38,196 bases of DNA, taken from Magnetococcales bacterium. Its GTDB lineage: Bacteria; Pseudomonadota; Magnetococcia; Magnetococcales; JADFWT01. This document shows, in pieces, positions 21,931 to 36,847 of this stretch. The translations under genes were made by a program, and so were the position numbers. How positions within the stretch are numbered: the stretch's first letter is position 1; each line of letters starts with the position of its first letter. The DNA is taken from positions 1 through 38,196 of the forward strand of contig JADFWT010000015.1 in assembly GCA_015233785.1 (NCBI GenBank), in the 5' to 3' direction. The notes below the pieces were generated by a model, which saw only the letters and a list, made by a program, of their open reading frames with translations, was not told the origin of the DNA and did not search any database.

Positions 21931-24900
21931 TCACCCCCCCCCACACGCATCCCGAATCGCACCCAACAACTGGTCCTTCTTGATCGGCTTGCCAAGATGC
22001 AGGTTCGCGCCAGCCGCCAGACTCCTCTGCCGCTCTTCCTCCATGGCGTAGGCCGTTAAGGCAATCATGGGAATGGGCTCCCGGCCATGCTCCTTCTCAA
22101 AGCTACGCATGGCCTGTAAAGCCGTGTAGCCATCCATTACTGGCATCTGAATATCCATCAGAACCAGATCATAACGCTGTTCACGAAACCGATCCAAAGC
22201 TTGTTGACCGTTCTCCACATCATCAATGGTAAAGGCGGTTGCACGGCTAAAAGCGTGCACCAGCATACGGTTCTCTTTGGCATCATCAGCCAACAGAATC
22301 CGTAGTGGCGTTTGCAGAAGATCCTCACTCTGTTGCGGCTCGCTGGGAGGAGTTTTTTTTCCACTCAGGGCCTCTTCAACACGGGTAAACAGCTCTCCAC
22401 GCTTGATCGGCTTGGCAATGATATTCATCTGTGCCACCAACGATTGATGCTGGGCGCGTAGAATATCGGAGGTGAGCATCAGAATGGGAATCTCTGCCGC
22501 ATAGCCGGCGTCCAGACAGTTGGCCACCTGTACACCATTGAGCTTCGGCATACGAAAATCCAGCAGAACAATATGATAGGGATGTCCCTCTTCTCTGGCC
22601 CGCTCCACTTCACGCAGCCCCTCCTCCCCATCTGCTGCCTCAATAATCTCCGCACCAGTCTCTTGAAACATCTCTTTGATGATGATCCGATTCACATCAT
22701 AATCATCCACTACCAGGATGCGCTTCCCATGCAAATCCGGCATGGTAAATGGATTGATATCTTGAGCGCTTCCCTGTGATAAAACGATAGAGAAACTAAA
22801 GCAACTTCCCTGCTTCGGCTTACTCTCCAAAGTCAGATCGCCCCCCATCATCTTCACATAACGACGCGCAATACTCAGTCCCAATCCAGTCCCGCCGTGG
22901 CTACGGTTGATGGAGGCATCGGCTTGACCAAAAGGATCAAAAATAACCTCCTGTTTCTCAAAAGGAATGCCAATACCGGTATCAATAACCGAAAAAATCA
23001 GCCGAACCTGATCGTTCGCCATGGAAGCCGTCGATACCTTCACACGCACTTCACCTTTATGGGTGAACTTGACCGCGTTGCTCATTAAATTAAGCAAAAT
23101 TTGACGCAATCGCGAAGGATCACCCTGAAGCACAGAGGGTAGTGGACCGATACGTTGCCAGGATATTTCCAACCCTTTGTCGTGCGCCGACGGGGATAGA
23201 ATGTCGCATAGCGTGTCCATCAGCGGTTCCAGATCAAACGGAACCGACTCCAGCATCACTTGACCGGCCTCAATCTTGGACATATCCAAAACATCATTGA
23301 TAATACTCAGCAGGGCCTCACCAGCCGCCTTAAATATCCGCACATACCCCATCTGCCTCTTATTAAGCGGGGTCTCCTCCAGAAGCTGGGCCATGCCAAT
23401 GACCGAGTTCATCGGCGTACGAATCTCATGACTCATATTGGACAAAAACATGCTCTTGGCCTCATTGGCGCGATCAGCCGCCTCCTTGGCCTTGCGTAGT
23501 GCATGCTCCATTCGTTTGGCATGGGTAATATCCACCCAACAAGAGCGACTGTAGAGTATCTTCCCCTGATCGTCTTTTACCGAAGTGGCGTTAAGATTGA
23601 CATCTATTTGACGACCATCCCGACGTTTGAGCTGCAACTCAGCATTCTGAATCTCACCGCTCTCAACAAAAGTCTGAAAGACCTGATGTACCTTGTCCAG
23701 ACAGTCAGGATGGTAGAGTTCAAAGATCTCTCTGCCGATGATCTCCTCTTTGGTGTAGCCAAGATTATCGGCAACGGTCTGGTTACACTGCTTAATAATG
23801 GCTGTGGCAGCGTCTACCGAGGCATACATATCGGGGGAGAAATCATAGAGGTCGGCATAGCGTGCCTCAGATCGAATCAAGGCTTGGTTGGCCCGAGTCA
23901 GCTCCTGTGTCCGCAACTTAACCTGACGCCGCAGTGCCCAGGTCCACAACACCCCCATAAGCATCAGAAAAAACAGACCGACCCCAGCCATCAAGCCATA
24001 ACGTCGGATCTTCTGTAACGGTACCCCCCGAGGATCAACGATACCGAACCACTTATCATAAATTTCGTCATAGCGTCCGGTGGCCTTGATAATGCTAAGG
24101 CCTTGATTCAATTGATCACGAAGATGACTGTTGCCTTCACGGACTGCAAACCTATAGCCGTGCCCGTAGACATCAATTTTTGGGCCAGAGCTCTCCAGAT
24201 TAGTCAACCCCAGTTCATGAACGGTTAAAAGGGCAACCAGTCTTGGCACCAAGGCCAAATCGCCTTCGCCACTGGCTAAACGACGCAGGCTATCGGCAAC
24301 GGTTTTTGTCGCGAGAATTTTTGAAGTGACTTGATTTTTTTTTAGATAATCGTGGGTTGCGTCAGACTGCATAACCAAAATAGTCCGACCACGCAGATCC
24401 ACCTTTCGACGGATTGGTGCACCTCCCTTGCGAACAAAGGCCACCGCATAGGAGACGGTATGGGGGGTGGTATAATCAAAAAGCTTATCCCGCTCGGTAG
24501 AGTAAGAGACCAAAGGCAGCGCATCGATCTCACCCTTTTCCAGGGCATGGCGTACCTCATCCCAGGGACCAACCCGAAAGATAACCGGTAACCCCATCAC
24601 CTCTGCTACGGCCTTAAACAGATCAACACTGAATCCGTCCGCCTCACCGTTACTATTGACAATGGCAAACGGTGGATAACCCACCTCACTCCCCACCAAC
24701 AGGGCATCATCCGCAGCCACAACACGCGGCAGCAGAGAGGTCAGCACCATCAGAACGACAGAGAGCGCCATAAGCCAACGCCCTACCATCATCCGTAGTA
24801 TTTGTAGAGAGGAAAAAAGACGCAGACTAACGGGCCTGCCAACCACCTCACATTCCACAAGGAAGCGACGGCAGAAATCAAGCCGATGGACGAGATGCGC

Positions 24901-24954
24901 AGACACGCAATAATCCGACATTTGGACGCACCCCCACAGTGACGTCCCCCTCAA
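21931..24954 (-). CDS. Hybrid sensor histidine kinase: periplasmic SBP_bac_3 sensor - TM - PAS - HisKA - HATPase - REC - REC
   Basis: Solute-binding family 3 sensor (LLVGSEVGYPPFAIVNSNGEADGFSVDLFKAVAEVMG), SNMSHEIRTPMNSVIGMAQ, GGTGLGLSIARRYVKMMGG, REC1 IVLLDFRMPKLNG, REC2 LVLMDIQMPVMDG. True start may be the MMVGRWL codons near 24792. Confidence 0.93.
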   Translation of the reverse strand: MRGTSLWGCVQMSDYCVSAHLVHRLDFCRRFLVECEVVGRPVSLRLFSSLQILRMMVGRWLMALSVVLMVLTSLLPRVVAADDALLVGSEVGYPPFAIVNSNGEADGFSVDLFKAVAEVMGLPVIFRVGPWDEVRHALEKGEIDALPLVSYSTERDKLFDYTTPHTVSYAVAFVRKGGAPIRRKVDLRGRTILVMQSDATHDYLKKNQVTSKILATKTVADSLRRLASGEGDLALVPRLVALLTVHELGLTNLESSGPKIDVYGHGYRFAVREGNSHLRDQLNQGLSIIKATGRYDEIYDKWFGIVDPRGVPLQKIRRYGLMAGVGLFFLMLMGVLWTWALRRQVKLRTQELTRANQALIRSEARYADLYDFSPDMYASVDAATAIIKQCNQTVADNLGYTKEEIIGREIFELYHPDCLDKVHQVFQTFVESGEIQNAELQLKRRDGRQIDVNLNATSVKDDQGKILYSRSCWVDITHAKRMEHALRKAKEAADRANEAKSMFLSNMSHEIRTPMNSVIGMAQLLEETPLNKRQMGYVRIFKAAGEALLSIINDVLDMSKIEAGQVMLESVPFDLEPLMDTLCDILSPSAHDKGLEISWQRIGPLPSVLQGDPSRLRQILLNLMSNAVKFTHKGEVRVKVSTASMANDQVRLIFSVIDTGIGIPFEKQEVIFDPFGQADASINRSHGGTGLGLSIARRYVKMMGGDLTLESKPKQGSCFSFSIVLSQGSAQDINPFTMPDLHGKRILVVDDYDVNRIIIKEMFQETGAEIIEAADGEEGLREVERAREEGHPYHIVLLDFRMPKLNGVQVANCLDAGYAAEIPILMLTSDILRAQHQSLVAQMNIIAKPIKRGELFTRVEEALSGKKTPPSEPQQSEDLLQTPLRILLADDAKENRMLVHAFSRATAFTIDDVENGQQALDRFREQRYDLVLMDIQMPVMDGYTALQAMRSFEKEHGREPIPMIALTAYAMEEERQRSLAAGANLHLGKPIKKDQLLGAIRDACGGG

Positions 24955-25018: not shown

Positions 25019-25705
25019 TCACCAAGGCATAAACTGATTCATAAAGCTCATGGGCCGCGTTGCACCGTTCATGTCATACCCCATGCGGGACACAGAGCCG
25101 GTCATGACATGCATGGCCTGGGTCATGGACTGCATATTGGAACTCATAGGGCCCAGTGTATCAAGTTTGACGGACATGGAGTCCATGACGCCGGACATAT
25201 GCCCGACACTCTTATCCATGCTGGTAACGTTGATGGACATGTGCTCCATGTTCTGGGCCATGTTCTGCATATCCACACTCATGGTCTCCATATTGTCGCT
25301 GATGTACTCCAGGTGCGTGGAGATTGAGGCGACGTTATCGGCCAAGATGCGAATGTTGCTGGACATGCCGCCCATGTTCATGCCCATCTTTGGATCGATA
25401 GACGAGGCCATGGTGCGAATATCTTGGGTGAGGCTATAAATGAGAAAAAAGCCGTACATGGCTAAAATAATGAAGGCAAAGAGCGACGGATAGACAATCA
25501 GCTCCCAACGCTTTGCGCTCTTGTCAAAGCTCTTGGCAAACTGGTCCAACACCGACGCCGAGCAGCCACCACACTCATCGTGCTGCCCAATGGGAATCAG
25601 CGGCGCTCCACGCATGGATGGCCTACTCTTGATCTTGGTGGCATCGCCGGTCTTTTTGGATGAATCTCCGACGAGCGCAGCGCCCGGCTTTTTTTGCTCG
25701 GCCAT
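25019..25705 (-). CDS. Single-pass membrane protein with basic N-terminus containing CGGC and a long Met-rich coiled-coil C-terminal domain
   Basis: N-term MAEQKKPGAALVGDSSKKTGDATKIKSRPSMRG...HDECGGCSASV; TM LIVYPSLFAFIILAMYGFFLIYSL; C-term ISDNMETMSVDMQNMAQNMEHMSINVTSMDKSVGHMSGVMDSMSVKLDTLG with Met/Ile/Val spaced 3-4 residues. AGGAGG SD. Confidence 0.85.
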   Translation of the reverse strand: MAEQKKPGAALVGDSSKKTGDATKIKSRPSMRGAPLIPIGQHDECGGCSASVLDQFAKSFDKSAKRWELIVYPSLFAFIILAMYGFFLIYSLTQDIRTMASSIDPKMGMNMGGMSSNIRILADNVASISTHLEYISDNMETMSVDMQNMAQNMEHMSINVTSMDKSVGHMSGVMDSMSVKLDTLGPMSSNMQSMTQAMHVMTGSVSRMGYDMNGATRPMSFMNQFMPW

Positions 25706-25731
25706 ATTCCGGCCTCCTGATCAAAAAAAAT

Positions 25732-26421
25732 TCAGCTTGCTAACTTGGCGTGCTTGGCGACTGGTCGCTTTGTACGCCGTTTTTTGGCAAGCGATGGGTA
25801 GAGCTTCTTGGCCAGCCCCAAAAACTCCTGGGCAGCCTTACTCCTGGGAGAGAGCTCAAAAACAGCGCGTCCTTCGCTGAATGAGCGCCGGTAGGCGGTG
25901 CGCTGTCCTATACGATCCTTGAGCACCGTTACCCGAGAGAGATAGGTCAGAGCCTCCTCGGTTTCGTCCGATTCACGCAGGCCGGGATGGGTATCGGCCC
26001 GATTGACAAACAACACCACTTCCGGCCAGTCACGCTTTCTGCCCACGGTCTCGGCAATGATGTCCAAAAAACGCTGTGTGGACCACACATCCGCCTGACT
26101 GGGCGGAACCGGAACCACAATTCGATCCGCCATCAAAATGGCCTGTCTCATGGTCCAACGATTAGAAGCGCTGATATCCATCAACGCATGGCCCTTATGC
26201 TCCTTAAGGATCGGCTCCGGATCGGTGTCGGGGCGATAGGCGTTGATAAACGGCTCAACCCCCTCTTCCTTACGCAACTCCACCACCTCACTCAATGTGG
26301 CCTGAGGATCCAGGTCGAAAGCCACCACGTTCTCACCAGCATGTGCCAGCCAGACCGCCAGATTAAAGGTAATGGTACTCTTTCCGCACCCACCTTTTAG
26401 ATTTCCGATAACTGTGACCAT
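25732..26421 (-). CDS. Orphan ParA/MinD-family ATPase
   Basis: Deviant Walker A GNLKGGCGKSTITFNLA, Walker A' VVAFDLDPQATLS, basic C-terminus; no ParB gene adjacent. 27 nt upstream of the Met-rich coiled-coil gene on the same strand. Confidence 0.93.
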   Translation of the reverse strand: MVTVIGNLKGGCGKSTITFNLAVWLAHAGENVVAFDLDPQATLSEVVELRKEEGVEPFINAYRPDTDPEPILKEHKGHALMDISASNRWTMRQAILMADRIVVPVPPSQADVWSTQRFLDIIAETVGRKRDWPEVVLFVNRADTHPGLRESDETEEALTYLSRVTVLKDRIGQRTAYRRSFSEGRAVFELSPRSKAAQEFLGLAKKLYPSLAKKRRTKRPVAKHAKLAS

Positions 26422-26624: not shown

Positions 26625-27068
26625 TTACTTGCTCTCGGCGGCAGGCTTCTCAGCGGCAGGCGCACGAGGAGGTGCACCGTAGGGGCCGGCACCGTAAGGG
26701 CCGTAGTAAGGATTGCCGCCATAAGGACCGCCCCAGTTGTTGTTGTTCCAGCCGTTGTTCCAGCCGTTGTTCCAGCCGTTGTTCATGTTGTTGTTCCAGT
26801 TGTTGTTGCCATAGCCGTTGCCATAGCCACCAACATCACCACCCATGTTGAAGCCGATGTTGCCACGGGCGTTGCCGCCGCCATGACCGCCACCGTTGTT
26901 GTTCCAGCCGTTGTTCCAGCCGTTGTTCCAGTTATTGCTGTTGTTGTTGTTCCAGCCGTTGTTGCCCCAACCCGGACCCCAGCCCCAAGCTTCGGCGCTA
27001 CCGGAAGTCAACATGGCCATTCCACCGAACAGAGCGGCGATCGCAAGAATCTTCATACCATTCTTCAT
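26625..27068 (-). CDS. Exported Asn/Trp/Gly-rich protein, sulfur-globule-protein-like
   Basis: MKNGMKILAIAALFGGMAMLTSGSAEAWGWGPGWGNNGWNNN...NARGNIGFNMGGDVGGYGNGYGNNNWNNN...NNGWNNGWNNGW...GGPYGGNPYYGPYGAGPYGAPP: Sec signal plus composition and order (W/N/G start, NARG..FNM core, GYG/PYG end) reminiscent of purple-sulfur-bacterial Sgp proteins. Confidence 0.7.
   Translation of the reverse strand: MKNGMKILAIAALFGGMAMLTSGSAEAWGWGPGWGNNGWNNNNSNNWNNGWNNGWNNNGGGHGGGNARGNIGFNMGGDVGGYGNGYGNNNWNNNMNNGWNNGWNNGWNNNNWGGPYGGNPYYGPYGAGPYGAPPRAPAAEKPAAESK
26748..26783 (-). repeat. Short in-frame tandem repeat, 3 x 12 bp (CCAGCCGTTGTT on + strand; NNGW in protein)
   Basis: Direct reading of three consecutive identical 12-mers. 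Confidence 0.85.
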
Positions 27069-27194
27069 AACTTTAAACTCCACAGACTGCGTTGTTTACT
27101 AAATGTACGCGCATCATCGCGCCTTTAAGTGCGGGGGGGAATCGTGTTCCTCATCCACCGCATGGGGAAAGCCGACCTCGTTACCGTCGGCCCT

Positions 27195-27587
27195 CTACCA
27201 GCCCCAACCGGGACCGCCCCAACCTGGACCGCCCCAACCGGGGCCGTTCCACGGATTCCAACCATTGTTCCAGTTGTTTCCGTTATTCCAGTTATTGCCG
27301 TTGTTCCAGAGATTGTCCCAGTTATTATTCCAGAGACCATCCCCCCAGCCACCGACATCTCCGCTGATGTTGAAGCCGATATTACCACGGGCGTTGCCGC
27401 CGCCGTAGCCATTGCCGTTATTGCCCCAACCATTGTTCCAATTGTTGCCGTTATTCCAATTGTTGCCGTTATTCCAGTTATTGCCACCCCAAGGGCCCCA
27501 ACCCCAGGCTTCGGCAGTATCTGCACTCATCAGCGTGGCCGCACCCAGAAAGGCCGCCAGCGCCAACATTCCCACGGTTTTCTTCAT
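27195..27587 (-). CDS. Exported Asn/Trp/Gly-rich protein, paralog of the 26625..27068 product
   Basis: MKKTVGMLALAAFLGAATLMSADTAEAWGWGPWGGNNWNNGNNWNNGNNWNNGWGNNGNGYGGGNARGNIGFNISGDVGGWGDGLWNNNW...: shares AEAWGWGP start and GGGNARGNIGFN(M/I)(G/S)GDVGG core with the neighbouring gene. Confidence 0.75.
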   Translation of the reverse strand: MKKTVGMLALAAFLGAATLMSADTAEAWGWGPWGGNNWNNGNNWNNGNNWNNGWGNNGNGYGGGNARGNIGFNISGDVGGWGDGLWNNNWDNLWNNGNNWNNGNNWNNGWNPWNGPGWGGPGWGGPGWGW

Positions 27588-27670: not shown

Positions 27671-28360
27671 TCACCAGATCCAAGGGTTATTCTGACTCCA
27701 GGGCGACCGATTACCATCGGCATAGCCGCCATACCTCCTTGGATCATCCCAGCCATAATAGCCCGCGGCACCCCTTCCTGGGGGATACCCACCTCCCCAT
27801 CCTGGCGGGGGAGCCCCATAGGGTCCGGGACCGTATGGACCATAGCCGTAAGCCGGTGGTCCACCATCATTTCCGTATCCGTACAAACGCCCCGGCGTCG
27901 CGCCCCAGGGATCGTAACCCACTAGCGGTGGACTCATGTAGCGAGCCCCCCAGGGGTCGTAACGAAACAGCCTCTCCGGTTGGCGCTGCTGAAGCACCTG
28001 ACGCTCCCGAAGAGTTCGCGCCCGATCCATGGAGTCGGATGACTTGGGTGCAGGCAGCGCTTCTGTCGCTGTCGTTTGCCCACCATCCCGATTCGCCCCT
28101 TGGACCATTTCCCCTTGGAACGATTTCATGAAGCGACCAAAATTGCGCCCCATATATTCGGCATCGCCACTTCCGGTACTTGGCATGGCCATTCCGGTAC
28201 CAGCCTGTGCCATGGAGCGGGCCAAATCCATCTCTGCAAAAGAGGCCGATGGAGCACCCAATCCCAAGATCATCATCAGCATCGGGACCGATCTCCGTTT
28301 CGAGATAATGGAGCGGTTCATCGGTCTCACCCTCCTCAATCCTCCAGACACTCCACCCAA
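27671..28360 (-). CDS. Exported Gly/Tyr/Pro-rich protein
   Basis: Signal-like RSVPMLMMILGLGAPSASFAEMD; C-terminal GYGPYGPGPYGAPPPGWGGGYPPGRGAAGYYGWDDPRRYGGYADG; likely start at MNRSIISKRR. Confidence 0.65.
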   Translation of the reverse strand: MGGVSGGLRRVRPMNRSIISKRRSVPMLMMILGLGAPSASFAEMDLARSMAQAGTGMAMPSTGSGDAEYMGRNFGRFMKSFQGEMVQGANRDGGQTTATEALPAPKSSDSMDRARTLRERQVLQQRQPERLFRYDPWGARYMSPPLVGYDPWGATPGRLYGYGNDGGPPAYGYGPYGPGPYGAPPPGWGGGYPPGRGAAGYYGWDDPRRYGGYADGNRSPWSQNNPWIW

Positions 28361-28584: not shown

Positions 28585-29265
28585 TCAGCGACCCATACGA
28601 CGCGGTGCAACCGGAGCGGCAGGACGAGTCACTTCATAATTCCTGGGTACTCTAAACAGCTCATCAGATTGACGCCCTTCCTGAATATTCAGCATGTGCA
28701 TGGAAGATCCATTGGCATACTCCTCCCGCACCGCTACCTTAAGCCTGGGATCCACCCAGAGACGTGAATACTGCATCTTGCCATTATTGGGGTTGCGACG
28801 CCCCACTTCCCACATCACTACCGAACGCCCAGACACCACAGAACGCCCCACTTTTCGACACTGCACGCCTCGATTGGGCTCCTTGCAGGGACTACCATCT
28901 TCATCCGGCAGTGGAGGCCGTGCAGCCGACACGCCCTGATGCTGTATCATGCGCTTCTGGTCGGGGAACAACATCCACGCCTGCTTGGCGTCCGGGTGAA
29001 AAATCATCACCACCGGCTGCTCTTTTATCCGTCCTTCCGTTCGAACCCCAAGCCGATCCACATAAATACGCCCTTTGGCACTCTTCTCCGGCTGGGTGGG
29101 ATCGGTACGCACCACCGTAGCCGAAAAGGGTACAGGAGGCCCGGACCATGCCCAGAGCGCCCCAGGCACACCGCCCAAAGCCATCATCACCCAAATAAGC
29201 GCGCTCAGCAGCTTCCAAATCCGTAGTCTAACAAAACCCGACTTCCCATGAACGTTCTCTACCAT
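28585..29265 (-). CDS. Exported protein, DUF4412/LolA-like beta-sheet family
   Basis: Hydrophobic signal LRIWKLLSALIWVMMALGGVPGALWA; PFSATVVRTDPTQPEKSAKGRIYVDRLGVRTEGRIKEQPVVMIFHPDAKQAWMLFPDQKRMIQHQ...SRLWVDPRLKVAVREEYANGSSMHMLNIQEGRQSDELFRVPRNYE. Start near 29265, overlapping the upstream gene's stop. Confidence 0.7.
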   Translation of the reverse strand: MVENVHGKSGFVRLRIWKLLSALIWVMMALGGVPGALWAWSGPPVPFSATVVRTDPTQPEKSAKGRIYVDRLGVRTEGRIKEQPVVMIFHPDAKQAWMLFPDQKRMIQHQGVSAARPPLPDEDGSPCKEPNRGVQCRKVGRSVVSGRSVVMWEVGRRNPNNGKMQYSRLWVDPRLKVAVREEYANGSSMHMLNIQEGRQSDELFRVPRNYEVTRPAAPVAPRRMGR

Positions 29266-30200
29266 CGCGGTCCCGACGGCCCATAAGCCCCACCCGGCGC
29301 ACCTCCCCACCAGCCTCGATAACGATCCTCCGCCCGCGCCGGCGTTGACCATGGTGGGCGCGGAGAGATGGCCTTACCGGCCGCACTATTCCGACCACCA
29401 TTCCGGCCATCGTCCCGATAGTCAGGACCACCGCTTTGGTTGGTCCGCTCAGTCCCTTTGCTACCACCATGCCTCATAGACGGTGGACGCAGATGACCAC
29501 GCCCAGGATCATAGGGGGTGTAGCGTGGCCGCAATGGCGGCGTCCCATAGGGCGTTGGCTCATAAGGGGTATTGCGGCCGTTCTGAGACCAACGGGAACG
29601 GCCATAACCCGGAAAGCCTCTGGCATCATAAGGCTGGCTTTGATAGCCCTTACCCATCCTCTCCTGGCGTGGATCGTTCCACGAACCGCTGCGAAACTGT
29701 GAAGGGGCATCACCACCACCCCTTCCATAGGCAGGATAGGCTCCAGGAGCCCCATGCCAACTACGCGCGGACGGGAGCATCCGACCCTCTTCTTGGGCGT
29801 AACGGGCGTCGGGCATTCCCGGCAGCTCACCGCCCCAAGGACGAGTACTTTCAGCAGCTCCCTGAGGACCAAAAACCGCCTCTTCCCGCCCTTTGCGCAG
29901 ATAGTGATCGCCATACCAGCGCCAGCGCTGCTGACCTTCATTCGCCTGCTGAACCGCCGCTCCACTCTGGCTCGGGGGTTGAGCCTGAGATTGCGCGGTC
30001 CAACTCGGTGCATGCCAACTACCGACGGCATAGGGCTGATAACCGGGGCTGGAAGACCAACTCTGACCATGGACGGCTGAACGACCACCATTTTGCGGTG
30101 CCGCCGCAAACCAATCGGTCTGCGCCTGGAGAGGGCTACCGGGCAGGCCAAGCGCAAATCCAACACAGAGCGCCGCCATATAGGACCATCTCAAACGCAT
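29259..30200 (-). CDS. Exported low-complexity Gly/Pro/Arg/Tyr-rich protein
   Basis: Signal peptide RLRWSYMAALCVGFALGLPGSPLQAQ; 313 aa rich in G, P, R, Y, S. Stop/start overlap with the adjacent genes supports a translated operon. Confidence 0.65.
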   Translation of the reverse strand: MRLRWSYMAALCVGFALGLPGSPLQAQTDWFAAAPQNGGRSAVHGQSWSSSPGYQPYAVGSWHAPSWTAQSQAQPPSQSGAAVQQANEGQQRWRWYGDHYLRKGREEAVFGPQGAAESTRPWGGELPGMPDARYAQEEGRMLPSARSWHGAPGAYPAYGRGGGDAPSQFRSGSWNDPRQERMGKGYQSQPYDARGFPGYGRSRWSQNGRNTPYEPTPYGTPPLRPRYTPYDPGRGHLRPPSMRHGGSKGTERTNQSGGPDYRDDGRNGGRNSAAGKAISPRPPWSTPARAEDRYRGWWGGAPGGAYGPSGPRW

Positions 30201-31312
30201 TAAAGTTGCCCCTTTCCGGCATCAACCGATGGCTCTGGATCCTTATCCGCACCAGTGGTCGACACGGCATTGGCTTTCTCTGTCACAACAACAGGAGTGA
30301 CCGGATCCGAAGGAAGTGGAGGAGTTCCAGACGGGCCAACAGGCTGACCTTGGGGAGGGAGATTCCCTTGCCCGTTATAATGCCCATAGTGAGGCGCATA
30401 ACCCATCTGTCCGGCTGGCGGTCCATAGCCGCTCCGACCAGCCGGAAGAGTACCATGCATGGCGTGATCTTGTGGCGGGCCATAGATCATCTGACCCTGA
30501 GGAGCATACCCCTGTTGCCCTTGTGGATAGCCATAGCCGCTCGGCCCATATTGGGGAGCATGCGCCATTTGACCCTGGGGAGTCCCATGGCCAAAGTCCC
30601 CCTGCCCCTGAGGTGCACCATACCCTTGCCCAGCATAAGGCCCGGCATGGCCCTGGGAAAACCGCCCACCGGGGGGATAATACCCTTGAGAAGCTTGCGA
30701 CGATTCGGGGCGATGCATCGAGACACCCTCACCACCATGAGCAGCAACACCAGGACTCATCCCGGTGCCTCCAGGAGGCATGCCAGGGCCTGTGGGTTGA
30801 TAATTCCGATAGCCGTATCGAGGCAACCATGAGGGAGATGGCGGCTGCCACCCCTGCTGCGAGGCCGAGGTAAAATCATGCCGCCGAGTGGGCGCATATC
30901 GATAGGGGTTGGCCGGATAAGGACGATAAAAATGGGTCTCTGTGGGCCAATCCTGGGGGGGTTTGACCTGCTCCTCCGGCGGTAGCCCCTCCGGTGCATT
31001 CATGGCAGGAACCTGAGCACTGAATCGGCGCGGCGGCGGAGGGCGATAACCATAGCCCCTCGACATGTCAGGCCCCGATCCAGGGTTCGGCTGCCCCTGC
31101 ACGGCCCCCTGAGATCCAGCACGAGCCCCAGGGCCATAGTTGGGAAGGCGATTGGTGGCAAGTGAGGGATCCTGCCCCATATCCGTCCAGTTGGGTTTGG
31201 CCCACTCGGGGGTCTCAAACGCCTCCACGGCCGTCATGCTTCCTGGGCCGCAGACAACGGCGGCACAGAGTGACAGAGCCGCGATACGATAAAAACGTGA
31301 TGGAGGCATTCC
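30200..31312 (-). CDS. Exported low-complexity Pro/Gly/Gln/Tyr-rich protein
   Basis: Signal-like FYRIAALSLCAAVVCGPGSMTAVEAFETPEW; repeats such as YAPQGQM, GYGPPAGQMGYAPHYGHYNGQGNLPPQGQ. Likely start at MPPSRFYRIA inside the 31375 ORF. Confidence 0.65.
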   Translation of the reverse strand, partial: GMPPSRFYRIAALSLCAAVVCGPGSMTAVEAFETPEWAKPNWTDMGQDPSLATNRLPNYGPGARAGSQGAVQGQPNPGSGPDMSRGYGYRPPPPRRFSAQVPAMNAPEGLPPEEQVKPPQDWPTETHFYRPYPANPYRYAPTRRHDFTSASQQGWQPPSPSWLPRYGYRNYQPTGPGMPPGGTGMSPGVAAHGGEGVSMHRPESSQASQGYYPPGGRFSQGHAGPYAGQGYGAPQGQGDFGHGTPQGQMAHAPQYGPSGYGYPQGQQGYAPQGQMIYGPPQDHAMHGTLPAGRSGYGPPAGQMGYAPHYGHYNGQGNLPPQGQPVGPSGTPPLPSDPVTPVVVTEKANAVSTTGADKDPEPSVDAGKGQL

Positions 31313-31427
31313 AAATCTCCCCGTAACAACGTTGCTCGTATGTACCCGATCTGAACAGAGGCCTTGCAAGACCACCGCTCAACTCCTCCACCCTACTCGA
31401 AATGACGCGGCAGCAACAATCCCCGTG

Positions 31428-34400
31428 CTACGCCTCCTCTTTCGGGCTCCCCTTCAACCGAATGCCGCGACGGCGACCGGCTCCGCTCTTGGCAGCCTCA
31501 CCCTTCTTTGCAGCCGGTTTTGCGGCAGCCGTTTTGCGTGTGGCCGGTTTTCTCTTGGTCGCCGTACGCTTTGCAGCGGTTTTGCTAGCCGCAGGCTTCT
31601 TGGTCGTTGCGCTCTTAGCCCGAGTGGCCCGCTTGCGTGTTGTGGTTGCCGCCTTTTTGGCCGCAGGCTTTGCTTTTACGGCACTCTTCTTGGCTTCCGG
31701 TTCTGGCTTTGCGTACTGCCTGGCCGGGGCCTCCTCTACCTTAGGCTCGGCTTTCACCTCACGCTTACTGGCCGCAGTGGTCTTGCGACTCTTGGGCGCC
31801 GATTTGGCCGTTGCCCGCTTCTTGGCCGCAGGTTTGACCGGCGTGGGCGACTTCTCCTCTACCTTTTTAGCTGCTGGTTTTACCTTGACAGCGGACTTTT
31901 CTGCCGCCTTCTTCGCCGTCGGTTTCACCTTGGCAGCAGGCTTCTCCGTGACCTTTTTGGCAGGCGGTTTAGCCTTAGGTTTCTCCTCAGCCTTTTTGGC
32001 CGCAGATTTCTGCTCGGCATCCGCCTCGGAGAGCTTTGCCTCCTTTGCTGGCGCAGCCTCCGCTTTGACGCTGGCTTTTTTATCCGTCGCCTTGTCGGCC
32101 TTCGCTGATTTCTCATCCTTGGCCGCCGCTTGTGGATCCTCCTTGCTGCGCTCCCGTTTCTTCTCCTCAGACTTGGTCTGCTTTGCCGCCACCTCAGGAT
32201 TGTATTTCTCCAGAAACTCCCGAGTTTTGGCAACATTAGCCCCGGATCTTTTGGGCATCTCACAAGAGGCGGAAGAGGTCTGGGGCGGAATAGCCGTATC
32301 ACTCTGCCCCCAGGAGGTCAGCTCCGGCTGAGCCAGGGCACGATGCGTGAGATCTACATCCTTTTCAGGCCTGCGGAATGCGCTCTCCGCACTGATGCAG
32401 CCCAGAGGAATCACCAGAAGGGTGAGCAGCGTGGAGACCAGCGCACCAAACAGCAGTGAGATGGCCATTCCCTGGAAGATAAAGTCGGTAAGAATGACAC
32501 TCGACCCGGCCACCAGCGCCAAGGCGGTGATGACGATGGGGCGGGTTCTCGCCTTGCAGGCCAGAATGACCGCTTCACGCACCGGCGTACCGCGCAGAAT
32601 CTCCTGCTGGGAAAAATCCACCAGCAAAATAGAGTTGCGAACAATAATACCCGCCAAGGCTATAAATCCAATCATGGAGGTGGCGGTAAATTTGGCATCC
32701 AGCATCCAGTGACCCGGCACAATGCCGATCAGGGTCAGAGGAATCGGGGCCATAATGATCGCCGGCAGCGTAAAGTTGCCGAACTCCCACACCACCAGCA
32801 TGTAGATCAATACAAGCGCCACCCCAAAGGCCATTCCCATATCCCGGAAGGTCTCGTAGGTAACGGTCCACTCCCCGGTCCACTCGAAACCAGACTCTTT
32901 ATAGGAGTCCGGCGGCCCCAAATAGTGACCGGACATGGTGACACCATCCGGCGTTGTGTAGCTCTCCAGCATCTCTTCCACTTCGGACATGCCGTAGATG
33001 GGCGCATCAAGACGACCCTCCACTTCGCCGGTGACATACTCCACCGGACGCAGATCCTTATGGTAGATTACAGAATCTTGTTTGCCCTTGACGAAGCGCC
33101 CAAGCTCACCCAGTGGAATCACCGACCCGGTGGGCGTCGTTATGGGAAGATCGCCCAGCGAAGTGATGCGCGAACGCACCTCCAGCGGGGCCTGAATGAC
33201 AATATAGGTAGGCTCCAGTACCGTCCCGCGTTTCACATCGCCCAACTTGACGCCGCCCATGGCCATGGCCAGATTACGGTTAATAGCATCCACCGAGACA
33301 CCGCGACGTACGGCCTTTTCAGTATCTACCTCAAAGCGCCAGATATCGGATACATCTTCGATATAGTTATCCACATCGACGATGGTCTTTGACTTCTCAA
33401 ACAGACGGGTCAACTCCTGGGCCACCTGGACGCGGGTTACCGGATCAGGGCCCGTCACCTCGGCCACCACCGATTGCAGCACCGGCGGGCCAGGCGGCAT
33501 CTCAACCACCTGAATCTTGGCACCGGCCTCTTGCGCCATAGGGGTCAGAAATTTGCGGGCAAAGACCGCCAGATCATGACTGGTGCGCTCACGATCACTC
33601 TTGTGCTTGAGCTGCACCTGAATATCGGCGTGCCATGCTTCGCGACGCAGATAGTAGTGACGCACCATACCGTTAAAATTATAAGGTGATGCGGTGCCGA
33701 CATAAGTCTGAAGCGCGGTCACTTCGGGAATCTGTTTGCGAAGCTCCTCGGTCATCTGCTGGGCGAGGTTGGCGGTCTTCGGCAGCGCCGTCCCCTCCGG
33801 CATATTGATGACAACATTAAACTCCGGCTTGTTATCCAACGGCAGAATCTTCACCGTCACATCGGTGGTGTAGAAGAGCGCCAGCGACATGAAGAAGACC
33901 ACCACCAGCCCGCCCAGGAACATCCACCCCTTGCCACGATTATCAACCAACGGCGGAATCAACCAGCGATAGAACCCTTCGAGCTTCTCCACCGAGGCGT
34001 GTTCACGATCGGCATACTTGTGCAGCGCATCCATGCTGGGTTTAATAATCTGTGCCAGCCATGGGGTAAAGATGAAGGCGGCAAACAGCGAAAAGAGCAT
34101 TGCCACCGATCCCAACGCGGGAATCGGTTCCATATACGGCCCCATCATGCCGCTGACAAAGCCCATGGGCAGTAGGGCGGCAATCACTGTGAAAGTGGCC
34201 AGAATTGTAGGGTTGCCCACCTCTCGTACGGCGTCTACGGAGATCTCCACACAGCAGTCGTGCTGAAGCAGCCAGCGGCGATAGATATTCTCAACTACCA
34301 CGATGGCGTCATCCACCAAAATGCCGATGGAGAAGATCAGTGCAAAGAGGCTTACCCGGTCAATGGTGTACTCCATGATCCAGGCGGCAAACACCGTCAT

Positions 34401-35588
34401 CAGGATCACCACCGGAATCACCACCAGCGTGACGATGGCCGGACGCAGGCCAAGCATGGCCCAGACCAGGAACATCACCGCCATGGTGGCGATAAAGAGC
34501 TTAAAGAGCAGCTCGTTGACCTTCTCGTTGGCGGTTTCGCCATAGTTGCGGGTTACGGCCACAAAAACATTGTCGGGGATAAAGTTGCCTTTCAACTCCT
34601 CCACCCGCTGTAGAACACCCTCGGCAACCGTGACGCCGTTGGAGCCCTTCTTTTTGGCAATGGCCAGGGTGACAGCCGGGGCGCCATTGGCGGCCGGGGT
34701 TCCCCCTGGATAGGCCTGTCCCGAGTAGTAGGTGACCATCTGCCGGGTCTCTTCGGGGCCGGAGAAGACCCGTGCCACATCGCCAATATAGATCGGCGCA
34801 TTGTGCCGGGTTCCCACAACCAATCGGGCAACCTCTTGAGCATTTTTGAGGAATGCACCGGTGTAGACCTTATAGCCGTGGCCACCCGCTTCCATATTGC
34901 CGATGCCCTGTTCGCTGTTGGCGGTCTTGATGGTACCGGCAATCTGGTCAAGGCTGATGCCGAAACCGGAGAGACGCTCGGGATAGACCTCCACACGAAT
35001 CTGCTCGGTACGACCGCCCACCACAAAGCCAAGGCTGGTGTTGGGCACCTCTTTCATCTTCTGAAGCACATCAAGCCCCAGCGTTCTAAGCGCCGCATCG
35101 TCCACATCGTTGGACCAGAGGGTCAACGCCACCACCGGCACATCATCCACCGCCTTGGGCTTCACAAGGGGTTTTCGAACCCCCGGTGGTATCCTGTCCA
35201 TGTTGGATTCGATCTTGTCGTAAAGCTTGAAGATCGACTCCTCCATATCCTCGCCGACATCAAACTCCACGGTGATCATGGCCTGCTCGCGCATGGAGGC
35301 GGAGTAGACGTGCTTCACACCCTGGATCTCACTCATGATCCGTTCCAGAGGCTCGGTGACCAGGGTGGCCACCTGCTCCGAAGAGGCCCCGGAGTAACTG
35401 ACAAAGATATCCACCATCGGCACGGAGATCTGGGGATCTTCCTGCCGAGGGGTAAACATCAATCCCAGCAGGCCCATGGCCAAGCAGGCGAACAGCAGCA
35501 AGGGCGAAAGGGGGGATTCAATAAAGGCTTTCGCCATTTTCCCTGCAACGCCGAGGGAATCGTCAGTAGGCTGATGTGTGGTGCTCAT
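31428..35588 (-). CDS. RND efflux permease (AcrB/AcrF superfamily) fused to a ~300-aa Lys/Ala/Pro-rich C-terminal tail
   Basis: RND landmarks (PLSPLLLFACLAMGLLGLMFTPRQEDPQISVPMVDIFVSYSGASSEQVATLVTEPLERIMSEI; ILVDDAIVVVENIYRRW; GIIVRNSILLVDF); tail with PAAKK/KPAAKK-type repeats beginning roughly after '...LAQPELTSWGQSD'. Confidence 0.93.
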   Translation of the reverse strand: MSTTHQPTDDSLGVAGKMAKAFIESPLSPLLLFACLAMGLLGLMFTPRQEDPQISVPMVDIFVSYSGASSEQVATLVTEPLERIMSEIQGVKHVYSASMREQAMITVEFDVGEDMEESIFKLYDKIESNMDRIPPGVRKPLVKPKAVDDVPVVALTLWSNDVDDAALRTLGLDVLQKMKEVPNTSLGFVVGGRTEQIRVEVYPERLSGFGISLDQIAGTIKTANSEQGIGNMEAGGHGYKVYTGAFLKNAQEVARLVVGTRHNAPIYIGDVARVFSGPEETRQMVTYYSGQAYPGGTPAANGAPAVTLAIAKKKGSNGVTVAEGVLQRVEELKGNFIPDNVFVAVTRNYGETANEKVNELLFKLFIATMAVMFLVWAMLGLRPAIVTLVVIPVVILMTVFAAWIMEYTIDRVSLFALIFSIGILVDDAIVVVENIYRRWLLQHDCCVEISVDAVREVGNPTILATFTVIAALLPMGFVSGMMGPYMEPIPALGSVAMLFSLFAAFIFTPWLAQIIKPSMDALHKYADREHASVEKLEGFYRWLIPPLVDNRGKGWMFLGGLVVVFFMSLALFYTTDVTVKILPLDNKPEFNVVINMPEGTALPKTANLAQQMTEELRKQIPEVTALQTYVGTASPYNFNGMVRHYYLRREAWHADIQVQLKHKSDRERTSHDLAVFARKFLTPMAQEAGAKIQVVEMPPGPPVLQSVVAEVTGPDPVTRVQVAQELTRLFEKSKTIVDVDNYIEDVSDIWRFEVDTEKAVRRGVSVDAINRNLAMAMGGVKLGDVKRGTVLEPTYIVIQAPLEVRSRITSLGDLPITTPTGSVIPLGELGRFVKGKQDSVIYHKDLRPVEYVTGEVEGRLDAPIYGMSEVEEMLESYTTPDGVTMSGHYLGPPDSYKESGFEWTGEWTVTYETFRDMGMAFGVALVLIYMLVVWEFGNFTLPAIIMAPIPLTLIGIVPGHWMLDAKFTATSMIGFIALAGIIVRNSILLVDFSQQEILRGTPVREAVILACKARTRPIVITALALVAGSSVILTDFIFQGMAISLLFGALVSTLLTLLVIPLGCISAESAFRRPEKDVDLTHRALAQPELTSWGQSDTAIPPQTSSASCEMPKRSGANVAKTREFLEKYNPEVAAKQTKSEEKKRERSKEDPQAAAKDEKSAKADKATDKKASVKAEAAPAKEAKLSEADAEQKSAAKKAEEKPKAKPPAKKVTEKPAAKVKPTAKKAAEKSAVKVKPAAKKVEEKSPTPVKPAAKKRATAKSAPKSRKTTAASKREVKAEPKVEEAPARQYAKPEPEAKKSAVKAKPAAKKAATTTRKRATRAKSATTKKPAASKTAAKRTATKRKPATRKTAAAKPAAKKGEAAKSGAGRRRGIRLKGSPKEEA

Positions 35589-35650: not shown

Positions 35651-36847
35651 CTAGCGAACAGAACCGCCATATTGCGGCGCATTCCATCCGGAAGGTCCAC
35701 CCTGGGGCGGTTGGGCAACGATCCGCTCGCCGGACTTGATACCGGAGAGCACGCTGATGGTCTGGTTATCCACCAAGCCACCAAGCCGCACCATGCGCAG
35801 GACCGGTTCGGCCTGGGCACCAAGCACGTAGACCGCTGGCAGGCTGCCGCGCCACAACACCGCAGACTTGGGAATGATCGGCAGATTTTTTACCGGTGAT
35901 GTGATATCGGGCACCATCACCTCGGCGTACATGCCGGGTCCACCCGGCGCATCGGTGGGCAGATCCAATTTCACCGTTACCGTATGGCGCTGGGGGTCGG
36001 CCATGGGATAAACCTGGGCAACGCGGGTATCCACACGCGCATCCCCCACATCCAGACGGGCCGGAATCACCATGCCCTTCTTGATACCAGGCATCAACCG
36101 AGCCGGAACATCCACCTTGATCTGAAGATGACGGGTATCGGCAAATTGCAACAGCGGCATGCCGGGCATCATGGTATCACCCACTTCGGCATGCTTGCGA
36201 ATGATCACCCCATCAAACGGGGCTATGGTCTGGGTATCACGCAGCTTGGCATCCAGTTCGTCCAATCCGGCCTGGGCCTGAAGCAGGCCAAAACGGGCCT
36301 GATCAATGCCGATACCGTGGGCGAAAATCTGCGCCCGTCGGGTTAGTTCCGGGTTGGTGGTGCCCATCATGCCGGACATAGGCTTGGTAAACACCTCGTC
36401 GAGCATCTTCGGTACGCCCATACCCATGGTCTCTGAGAACTGGGAGCCGGAGTAGACCTGACGGGTATACTGCACCCGAGCATTGCGCCATCCAGCCTGA
36501 GCCTTGGCCAATCCGGCTGCTGCGGAGCGCCGTTTGGCCACTAGATCGTCGTTGTTGAGCGCCACGAGAAGCGCGCCCCCTTCAAACCAATCCCCTTCGA
36601 CACCGGCGATCATTTCGATCCGGCCCGGCATCTGGGTGGCCAGAGAGACCTCCTTGAATGGAACAACGGTACCGCCCAAAGTGGTGGTAGCACCAATAGC
36701 CCCCGACTCCACCGTAACCACGGCTCCAGGGGTCTGGGCTTGTCCGAGCATGGGCGCGGCTGGCAGTAGAAATCCCGCAATCAAAACGGGCAGTGCGCGT
36801 CGTAGCAACTTGTTCCTGATCATGGAAAGATCCCTCTCCAACAACAT
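35651..36847 (-). CDS. RND efflux periplasmic adaptor (membrane fusion protein)
   Basis: Signal peptide, VVTVESGAIGATTTLGGTVVPFKEVSLATQMPGRIEMIAGVEGDWFEGGALLVALNN, DAKLRDTQTIAPFDGVIIRKHAEVGDTMMPGMPLLQFAD. Confidence 0.92.
   Translation of the reverse strand: MLLERDLSMIRNKLLRRALPVLIAGFLLPAAPMLGQAQTPGAVVTVESGAIGATTTLGGTVVPFKEVSLATQMPGRIEMIAGVEGDWFEGGALLVALNNDDLVAKRRSAAAGLAKAQAGWRNARVQYTRQVYSGSQFSETMGMGVPKMLDEVFTKPMSGMMGTTNPELTRRAQIFAHGIGIDQARFGLLQAQAGLDELDAKLRDTQTIAPFDGVIIRKHAEVGDTMMPGMPLLQFADTRHLQIKVDVPARLMPGIKKGMVIPARLDVGDARVDTRVAQVYPMADPQRHTVTVKLDLPTDAPGGPGMYAEVMVPDITSPVKNLPIIPKSAVLWRGSLPAVYVLGAQAEPVLRMVRLGGLVDNQTISVLSGIKSGERIVAQPPQGGPSGWNAPQYGGSVR

Follow-up and report, generated by a model that had tools for sequence, protein, structure and literature searches.

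A conserved ParA-RND operon with a shared terminal pump peptide suggests a DNA-partition motor used for pump placement

Introduction

ATPases of the ParA/MinD type place plasmids, chromosomes, chemoreceptors, flagella, carboxysomes and division sites. Partners engage these ATPases via short, positively charged, disordered peptides (PMC10241942; PMC13170346; PMC12204374). For the binding of ParB to ParA, hydrophobic contacts are the driving force and one Arg is essential for stimulation (PMC13170346).

Among the described systems, McdA/McdB resembles the locus reported here in having a ParA-type ATPase and a protein cargo, with a short basic disordered terminus of the partner engaging the ATPase (PMC12204374). 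In McdA/McdB, however, the peptide sits on the N-terminus of a separate adaptor, whereas here it would be the C-terminus of the proposed cargo itself, a trans-envelope pump. PomXYZ is similar in that two partners are possible and the activating peptide is basic (PMC13170346); unlike the ParA-RND system, it is a cytosolic division-site regulator that involves no transporter. The ParF/ParA plasmid partition ATPases share the small ParA without N-terminal DNA-binding domain and the deviant Walker A motif, but our locus has no ParG/ParB partner gene and ParA is found in a fixed chromosomal operon with an RND pump. In the open-access text that we searched, we found no link between a ParA/MinD ATPase and an RND efflux pump, and nothing on the peptide RRGIRLK.

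Results

An orphan ParA in an operon with an RND pump

The window, that is the whole stretch of DNA analysed, spans 38,196 nucleotides of a Magnetococcales genome (contig JADFWT010000015.1). The features are as follows.

25019-25705, minus strand: MetCC, a 228-aa protein with a single transmembrane (TM) helix and a Met-core coiled coil
25427-25540, minus strand: near-invariant juxtamembrane and TM stretch of MetCC (residues 56-93, FAKSFDKSAKRWELIVYPSLFAFIILAMYGFFLIYSLT), from the alignment
25732-26421, minus strand: ParA, a 229-aa ParF-like deviant-Walker-A ATPase, from family matches and alignment
26625-27083, minus strand: secreted Gly/Asn/Trp-rich protein with a GNIGFNMGG core
27195-27587, minus strand: second secreted Gly/Asn/Trp-rich protein, with a GNIGFNISG core
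27671-28360, minus strand: secreted protein rich in Gly, Pro and Tyr, of which some relatives have weak homologs
28585-29352, minus strand: secreted LolA/RseB-fold protein, a conserved operon member with an uncertain start codon
29259-30200, minus strand: low-complexity secreted protein whose gene lies between those of the pump and the LolA-like protein, without family match and of uncertain membership in the system
30200-31375, minus strand: low-complexity secreted protein rich in Gln, Gly, Pro and Tyr, encoded immediately downstream of the pump, without family match and of uncertain membership
31428-35588, minus strand: RND permease, 1386 aa, with an AcrB/CmeB-type core (residues 18-1062), the proposed cargo
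31431-32333, minus strand: low-complexity tail of the RND permease, ~300 aa, 28% K+R and 32% A+P, cytosolic by RND topology
31452-31472, minus strand: codons for RRGIRLK, the proposed ParA-recognition peptide near the pump C-terminus
35651-36847, minus strand: membrane-fusion adaptor (HlyD/CusB-type) of the RND pump

The ParA protein belongs to the ParA/MinD superfamily, with a deviant Walker A (KGGCGKST) containing the signature Lys, a DxDPQ motif and the Walker B Asp; it matches Pfam CbiA with E = 1.5e-16. In the ortholog alignment K9, G10, G11, G13, K14, S15, T16, D36, D38, P39, Q40 and D82 are invariant, as are DxDPQ (D36, D38) as a whole and RRSFSEG (178-184), and the basic residues at the C-terminus are variable. 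The match to NCBIfam ParA_partition (NF041546, 3.6e-40) scores 137.7 bits, below the curated cut-off of 180, which leaves the protein outside that family. Its nearest solved relatives by profile (5e-15) are TP228 ParF (PDB 4dzz) and a related ParA (5u1g).

The original prediction described an orphan ParA with an intact deviant Walker A, and this is borne out, as all the signatures are present and the operon lacks ParB. No ParB/ParG-like DNA-binding partner was found at the ParA loci, which sets the gene apart from parABS and plasmid partition systems. A chromosomal ParB acting as partner had been raised as well: the operon contains none, and the chromosomal ParB of G010, a relative assembled as a single contig, lies ~650 kb from ParA. 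No ParB was found in the window's own MAG, which is 72% complete. ParA is present in one copy per genome. A defence system was also considered and rejected, the single weak PADLOC match being limited to the ParA P-loop.

We also observed a sister ParA group (L311, L312 and L313; E ~1e-54 to 1e-61) with no RND nearby, adjoining genes that resemble RidA, LptD and SurA.

Conservation of the operon and co-occurrence of ParA with the pump

Within the window, the RND pump is located ~5 kb upstream of ParA in the same orientation, with its adaptor alongside. We found the order membrane-fusion adaptor (MFP), RND, secreted proteins, LolA-like, ParA and MetCC repeatedly in both Magnetococcales and Gammaproteobacteria. 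Of 65 fetched loci that include an RND ortholog, 64 have it upstream of ParA and on the same strand; in the f13 genomes the pump is encoded apart from ParA-MetCC. In a third lineage (G290), the arrangement is MFP, RND with RRGIRLK, LolA-like and ParA, with no adjoining MetCC. Accordingly, the ParA-RND link is independent of MetCC.

A strong ParA ortholog was found in 32 of 41 genomes of the order Magnetococcales (the window's own included) and MetCC adjoins it in all 32, so that the co-conservation on which the original prediction depended holds. Outside the order the pair occurs in Gammaproteobacteria, Chromatiaceae among them; Thiobaca trueperi has it, and strain DSM 13587 of this species carries the operon. 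MetCC is present in 85 of 96 Chromatiaceae genomes, and wherever a locus holds both genes (76/76) it follows ParA on the same strand. At gammaproteobacterial ParA loci MetCC is recognisable in 44 of 66 cases, about a third being without it.

We quantified the co-occurrence of ParA (E<=1e-40) and RND (E<=1e-100) in 369 gammaproteobacterial genomes drawn evenly from the class. ParA is found in 65 genomes, RND in 75 and both in 60 (Fisher p = 1.9e-48), and genomes with ParA have the longer RND open frames (p = 3.8e-6); these counts take related genomes as independent, a property known only roughly for this sample, and both p values are consequently optimistic. Genomes with one gene and not the other (5 with ParA, 15 with RND) may be explained in some cases by incompleteness or candidate limits. 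Defining a tailed RND as an open frame of at least 1190 aa, and judging ParA-less gammaproteobacterial RNDs by open-frame length, we found ParA in 57 of the 61 genomes with a tailed RND, the four without it being G407, G582, G656 and G671. ParA is present in 3 of the 14 genomes with short RNDs alone, one of these being cut by a contig end and another frameshifted. In some Magnetococcales genomes with a tailed pump (G002, G030, G033 and G037) ParA was not found; these four are all 65-80% complete.

A near-invariant peptide on the pump tail

The permease is an RND efflux pump by its match to PF00873 (ACR_tran, 5.4e-148, residues 18-1062) and by the HlyD-type adaptor upstream. Its core aligns over the full length with CmeB, MdtB and AcrB, and it is this end-to-end alignment that makes it like the AcrB/CmeB-type (HAE) pumps. 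It differs from them by an added cytosolic tail carrying RRGIRLK and by its operon partners ParA, MetCC and the LolA-like protein. Owing to this low-complexity tail past the last TM helix, intact orthologs reach 1198-1423 aa. The tail itself measures 77-355 aa, varying freely in length and in sequence outside the motif.

RRGIRLK is found exactly in 52 of 68 long-tailed orthologs, and 64 fit a relaxed pattern. Two more (L253 and L318) show RRGIRLK after reading past an assembly frameshift, raising the count to 66/68, and L286, from a genome with ParA, has the degenerate motif WRGIRLN. The sole long-tailed ortholog without the motif (1/68) belongs to G003, a ParA-less genome that is 96% complete and the one genome in which ParA and the motif are jointly absent. 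Shuffled tails never contain the motif. At the nucleotide level, a degenerate pattern coding for RRGIRLK gives 28 matches across 41 relatives, of which 27 fall at the pump terminus, compared to 3 for the reversed pattern in the same genomes; the window's genome has a single match, at the pump. The only match away from a pump terminus is G002:C429:4296-4316. The ParA-less RND paralogs, ~45% identical, have no tail. At the level of sequence, the tail with RRGIRLK co-occurs with ParA, as is expected of a cargo to be positioned.

Gammaproteobacterial pump tails often contain a stretch of hydrophobic residues with Arg or Lys at its centre (e.g. LFYAVRGIFLLL; L157, L162, L165, L174). This stretch could be membrane-embedded and, as a full TM helix, would place the motif in the periplasm of these species. 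The stretch with central Arg is missing from 16 of 17 Magnetococcales tails, and the cytosolic placement therefore rests best on Magnetococcales.

MetCC follows the pump more closely than ParA

MetCC contains 28 Met residues (12.3%). Over residues 95-214 Met recurs with a period of 3.49 (power 11.3), a heptad signal equalled by 0 of 2000 random placements, in agreement with the coiled-coil core dominated by Met that had been predicted. In the AlphaFold2 model, of low overall confidence (mean pLDDT 65), residues 1-47 are disordered and helices span 48-101 (with the TM within), 105-182 and 184-212. Charge distribution around the TM favours the N-in/C-out topology, as the original prediction had it; adjacency to ParA is likewise confirmed, at a spacing of 26 nt (25706-25731) rather than the 27 nt first given.

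Identity is ~60-70% across family-level groups of Magnetococcales, far above chance. Conservation is centred on the juxtamembrane/TM stretch and on RPMSF.N.FMPW at the C-terminus and does not extend to the N-tail: R66, W67, E68, L69, V71, Y72, P73, S74, F78 and others are invariant from Magnetococcales to Thiobaca. The described Lys/Arg-rich N-terminus is real in the window sequence (net charge +3) but is not conserved in orthologs, where it is usually acidic (mean net charge -0.9 in 34 Magnetococcales and -3.6 in 41 gammaproteobacteria). The CGGC motif is retained as CxxC by every scored Magnetococcales ortholog (34/34) but by just 2 of 41 gammaproteobacterial ones.

MetCC is present with its conserved parts intact in G003 and G014, both of genus g4, in which ParA is absent. 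Magnetococcales also have a second RND operon, tail-less and ParA-less, directly followed by MetCC paralogs, usually two in tandem (L089:3531-8022, L090:1972-6351, G009:C110, G024:C112, G031:C124, G040:C111). A further paralog group (L151, L153, L154 and L171) shares the N-terminus FEKDPRTFSPEYKNLSPEQKAMVKLE, and ParA is missing from the fetched locus.

An unconserved and usually acidic N-tail makes a poor ParA-engaging peptide. Because the tail has this character, because MetCC is kept where ParA is absent and because its paralogs follow a ParA-less RND pump, we abandoned the proposal that a basic N-terminus of MetCC engages ParA. MetCC without ParA in g4, ParA loci without MetCC and the ParA-less RND paralogs together indicate that MetCC follows RND pumps more closely than ParA. 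Given that its paralogs follow a tail-less RND, that it outlives ParA and that the N-tail is not its conserved part, MetCC is more probably a pump accessory than a ParA adaptor. The idea of an envelope cargo is retained, with the RND pump upstream as a better identification than something held by the MetCC coil.

Other genes around the locus

The product of 28585-29352 has the LolA superfamily fold. It matches LolA and RseB with E ~1e-6, at ~12% identity to LolA. Its AlphaFold2 model (pLDDT 81) finds LolA, RseB and ependymin among the top folds, with a TM-score of ~0.4-0.55, and the Chromatiaceae ortholog matches DUF4412. It thus resembles the LolA/RseB superfamily and DUF4412 in fold, but here forms a separate family tied to the ParA-RND operon.

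Between the LolA-like gene and ParA, secreted Gly/Asn/Trp-rich open reading frames with a GNFGFNMSGD-like core occur at 27 of 124 loci, some of them gammaproteobacterial; they are reminiscent of sulfur-globule envelope proteins. The genes after ParA encode, in many gammaproteobacteria, a TPR protein, a DUF302 single-TM protein and a dynamin-family GTPase (L302:10227-13989, L316, L297, L247:5076-7936). The LolA-like, Gly/Asn/Trp-rich and TPR/DUF302/dynamin neighbours suggest an envelope or lipid-related export task.

Downstream of MetCC, the window has a large hybrid histidine kinase (21931-24954, minus strand) with a periplasmic SBP_bac_3 sensor and a PAS domain. We rejected it as a member of the system, its position not being conserved in relatives.

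Discussion

From these comparisons, we consider it probable that ParA is the motor of a positioning system and that it acts on the RND efflux/export pump encoded in its own operon, a cargo engaged via a C-terminal peptide. With some reserve, we also favour the more specific reading in which ParA directly positions the trans-envelope pump and the pump's cytosolic C-terminal RRGIRLK is the element that activates the ATPase. The long disordered tail past the last TM helix would sit in the cytosol, where RRGIRLK, basic as well as hydrophobic, would bind the ATP-bound, nucleoid-attached ParA dimer and stimulate its ATPase, like the basic N-terminal peptides of ParB, McdB, PomX and MinE. This would space the pump assemblies or prevent them from gathering at one spot, and would divide them between daughter cells. 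MetCC (N-in, C-out) may stabilise or cluster the pump assembly, its Met-core coil extending into the periplasm. RRGIRLK fits the role of a ParA activator since it is basic, contains Ile and Leu and lies at the tip of a long, disordered tether in the cytosol. Nonetheless, known ParA activators are mostly N-terminal peptides and RRGIRLK is C-terminal, which counts against the model. The motif may resemble the N-terminal GRGL-type box of chromosomal ParB, a likeness that we do not use as evidence.

The tail and RRGIRLK might instead bind a target other than ParA (DNA, RNA, lipid or a chaperone), ParA having an unrelated cargo and the genes being merely co-inherited. The Lys/Ala/Pro-rich tails are indeed like histone-H1-like nucleic-acid-binding tails. 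We nevertheless think this unlikely: the motif is an island of eight residues inside a freely varying tail, it is missing where ParA is missing (G003 and the tail-less paralogs), and its charge pattern matches that of known ParA activators. That a plasmid- or chromosome-partition ParA strayed beside the pump genes is highly improbable. Its nearest solved relatives are plasmid ParF and a related ParA, but the same operon order is found in distant lineages, each genome has one copy, and ParB does not adjoin it, the chromosomal ParB lying elsewhere. Operon order and the distant ParB contradict a partition role, which we rejected.

Two other explanations bring MetCC into contact with ParA. As an adaptor, it would engage ParA through its cytosolic N-terminal part and hold the cargo with its periplasmic coil. 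Its place directly downstream of ParA (32/32 Magnetococcales and 44/66 gammaproteobacterial loci) agrees with this, and the contact could be made by the near-invariant juxtamembrane cytosolic segment (SFDKSAKRWELIVYPS) rather than by the tail. The adaptor role is nonetheless quite doubtful in view of the unconserved, usually acidic N-tail, of MetCC remaining unchanged where ParA is lost, of paralogs that go with ParA-less RND, and of the lack of MetCC at the ParA locus of G290 and at about a third of those in gammaproteobacteria. Alternatively, RRGIRLK and the MetCC juxtamembrane helix may both touch ParA, as PomX and PomY do with PomZ, a known case of one ATPase having two activators (PMC13170346). 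Both elements are near-invariant and both genes are operon neighbours of ParA; yet MetCC is conserved independently of ParA (G003 and G014) and some ParA loci lack MetCC, and we judge such a dual arrangement distinctly improbable.

Returning to direct positioning of the pump through RRGIRLK, an integral-membrane efflux machine would, if true, constitute a new class of ParA cargo, with a C-terminal, cargo-encoded activator, in Magnetococcales and many Gammaproteobacteria. The Brownian-ratchet machinery would then extend to a machine that spans the cell envelope and is fixed in it, raising the physical question of how a gradient of ParA on the nucleoid would act on a cargo confined to the membrane. 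With a peptide of 7 residues, the claim is cheap to test. Many orphan ParA genes would gain a cargo. The conserved ParA-RND operon and the near-invariant RRGIRLK shared by the pump tails suggest that a motor of DNA partition is used for pump placement.
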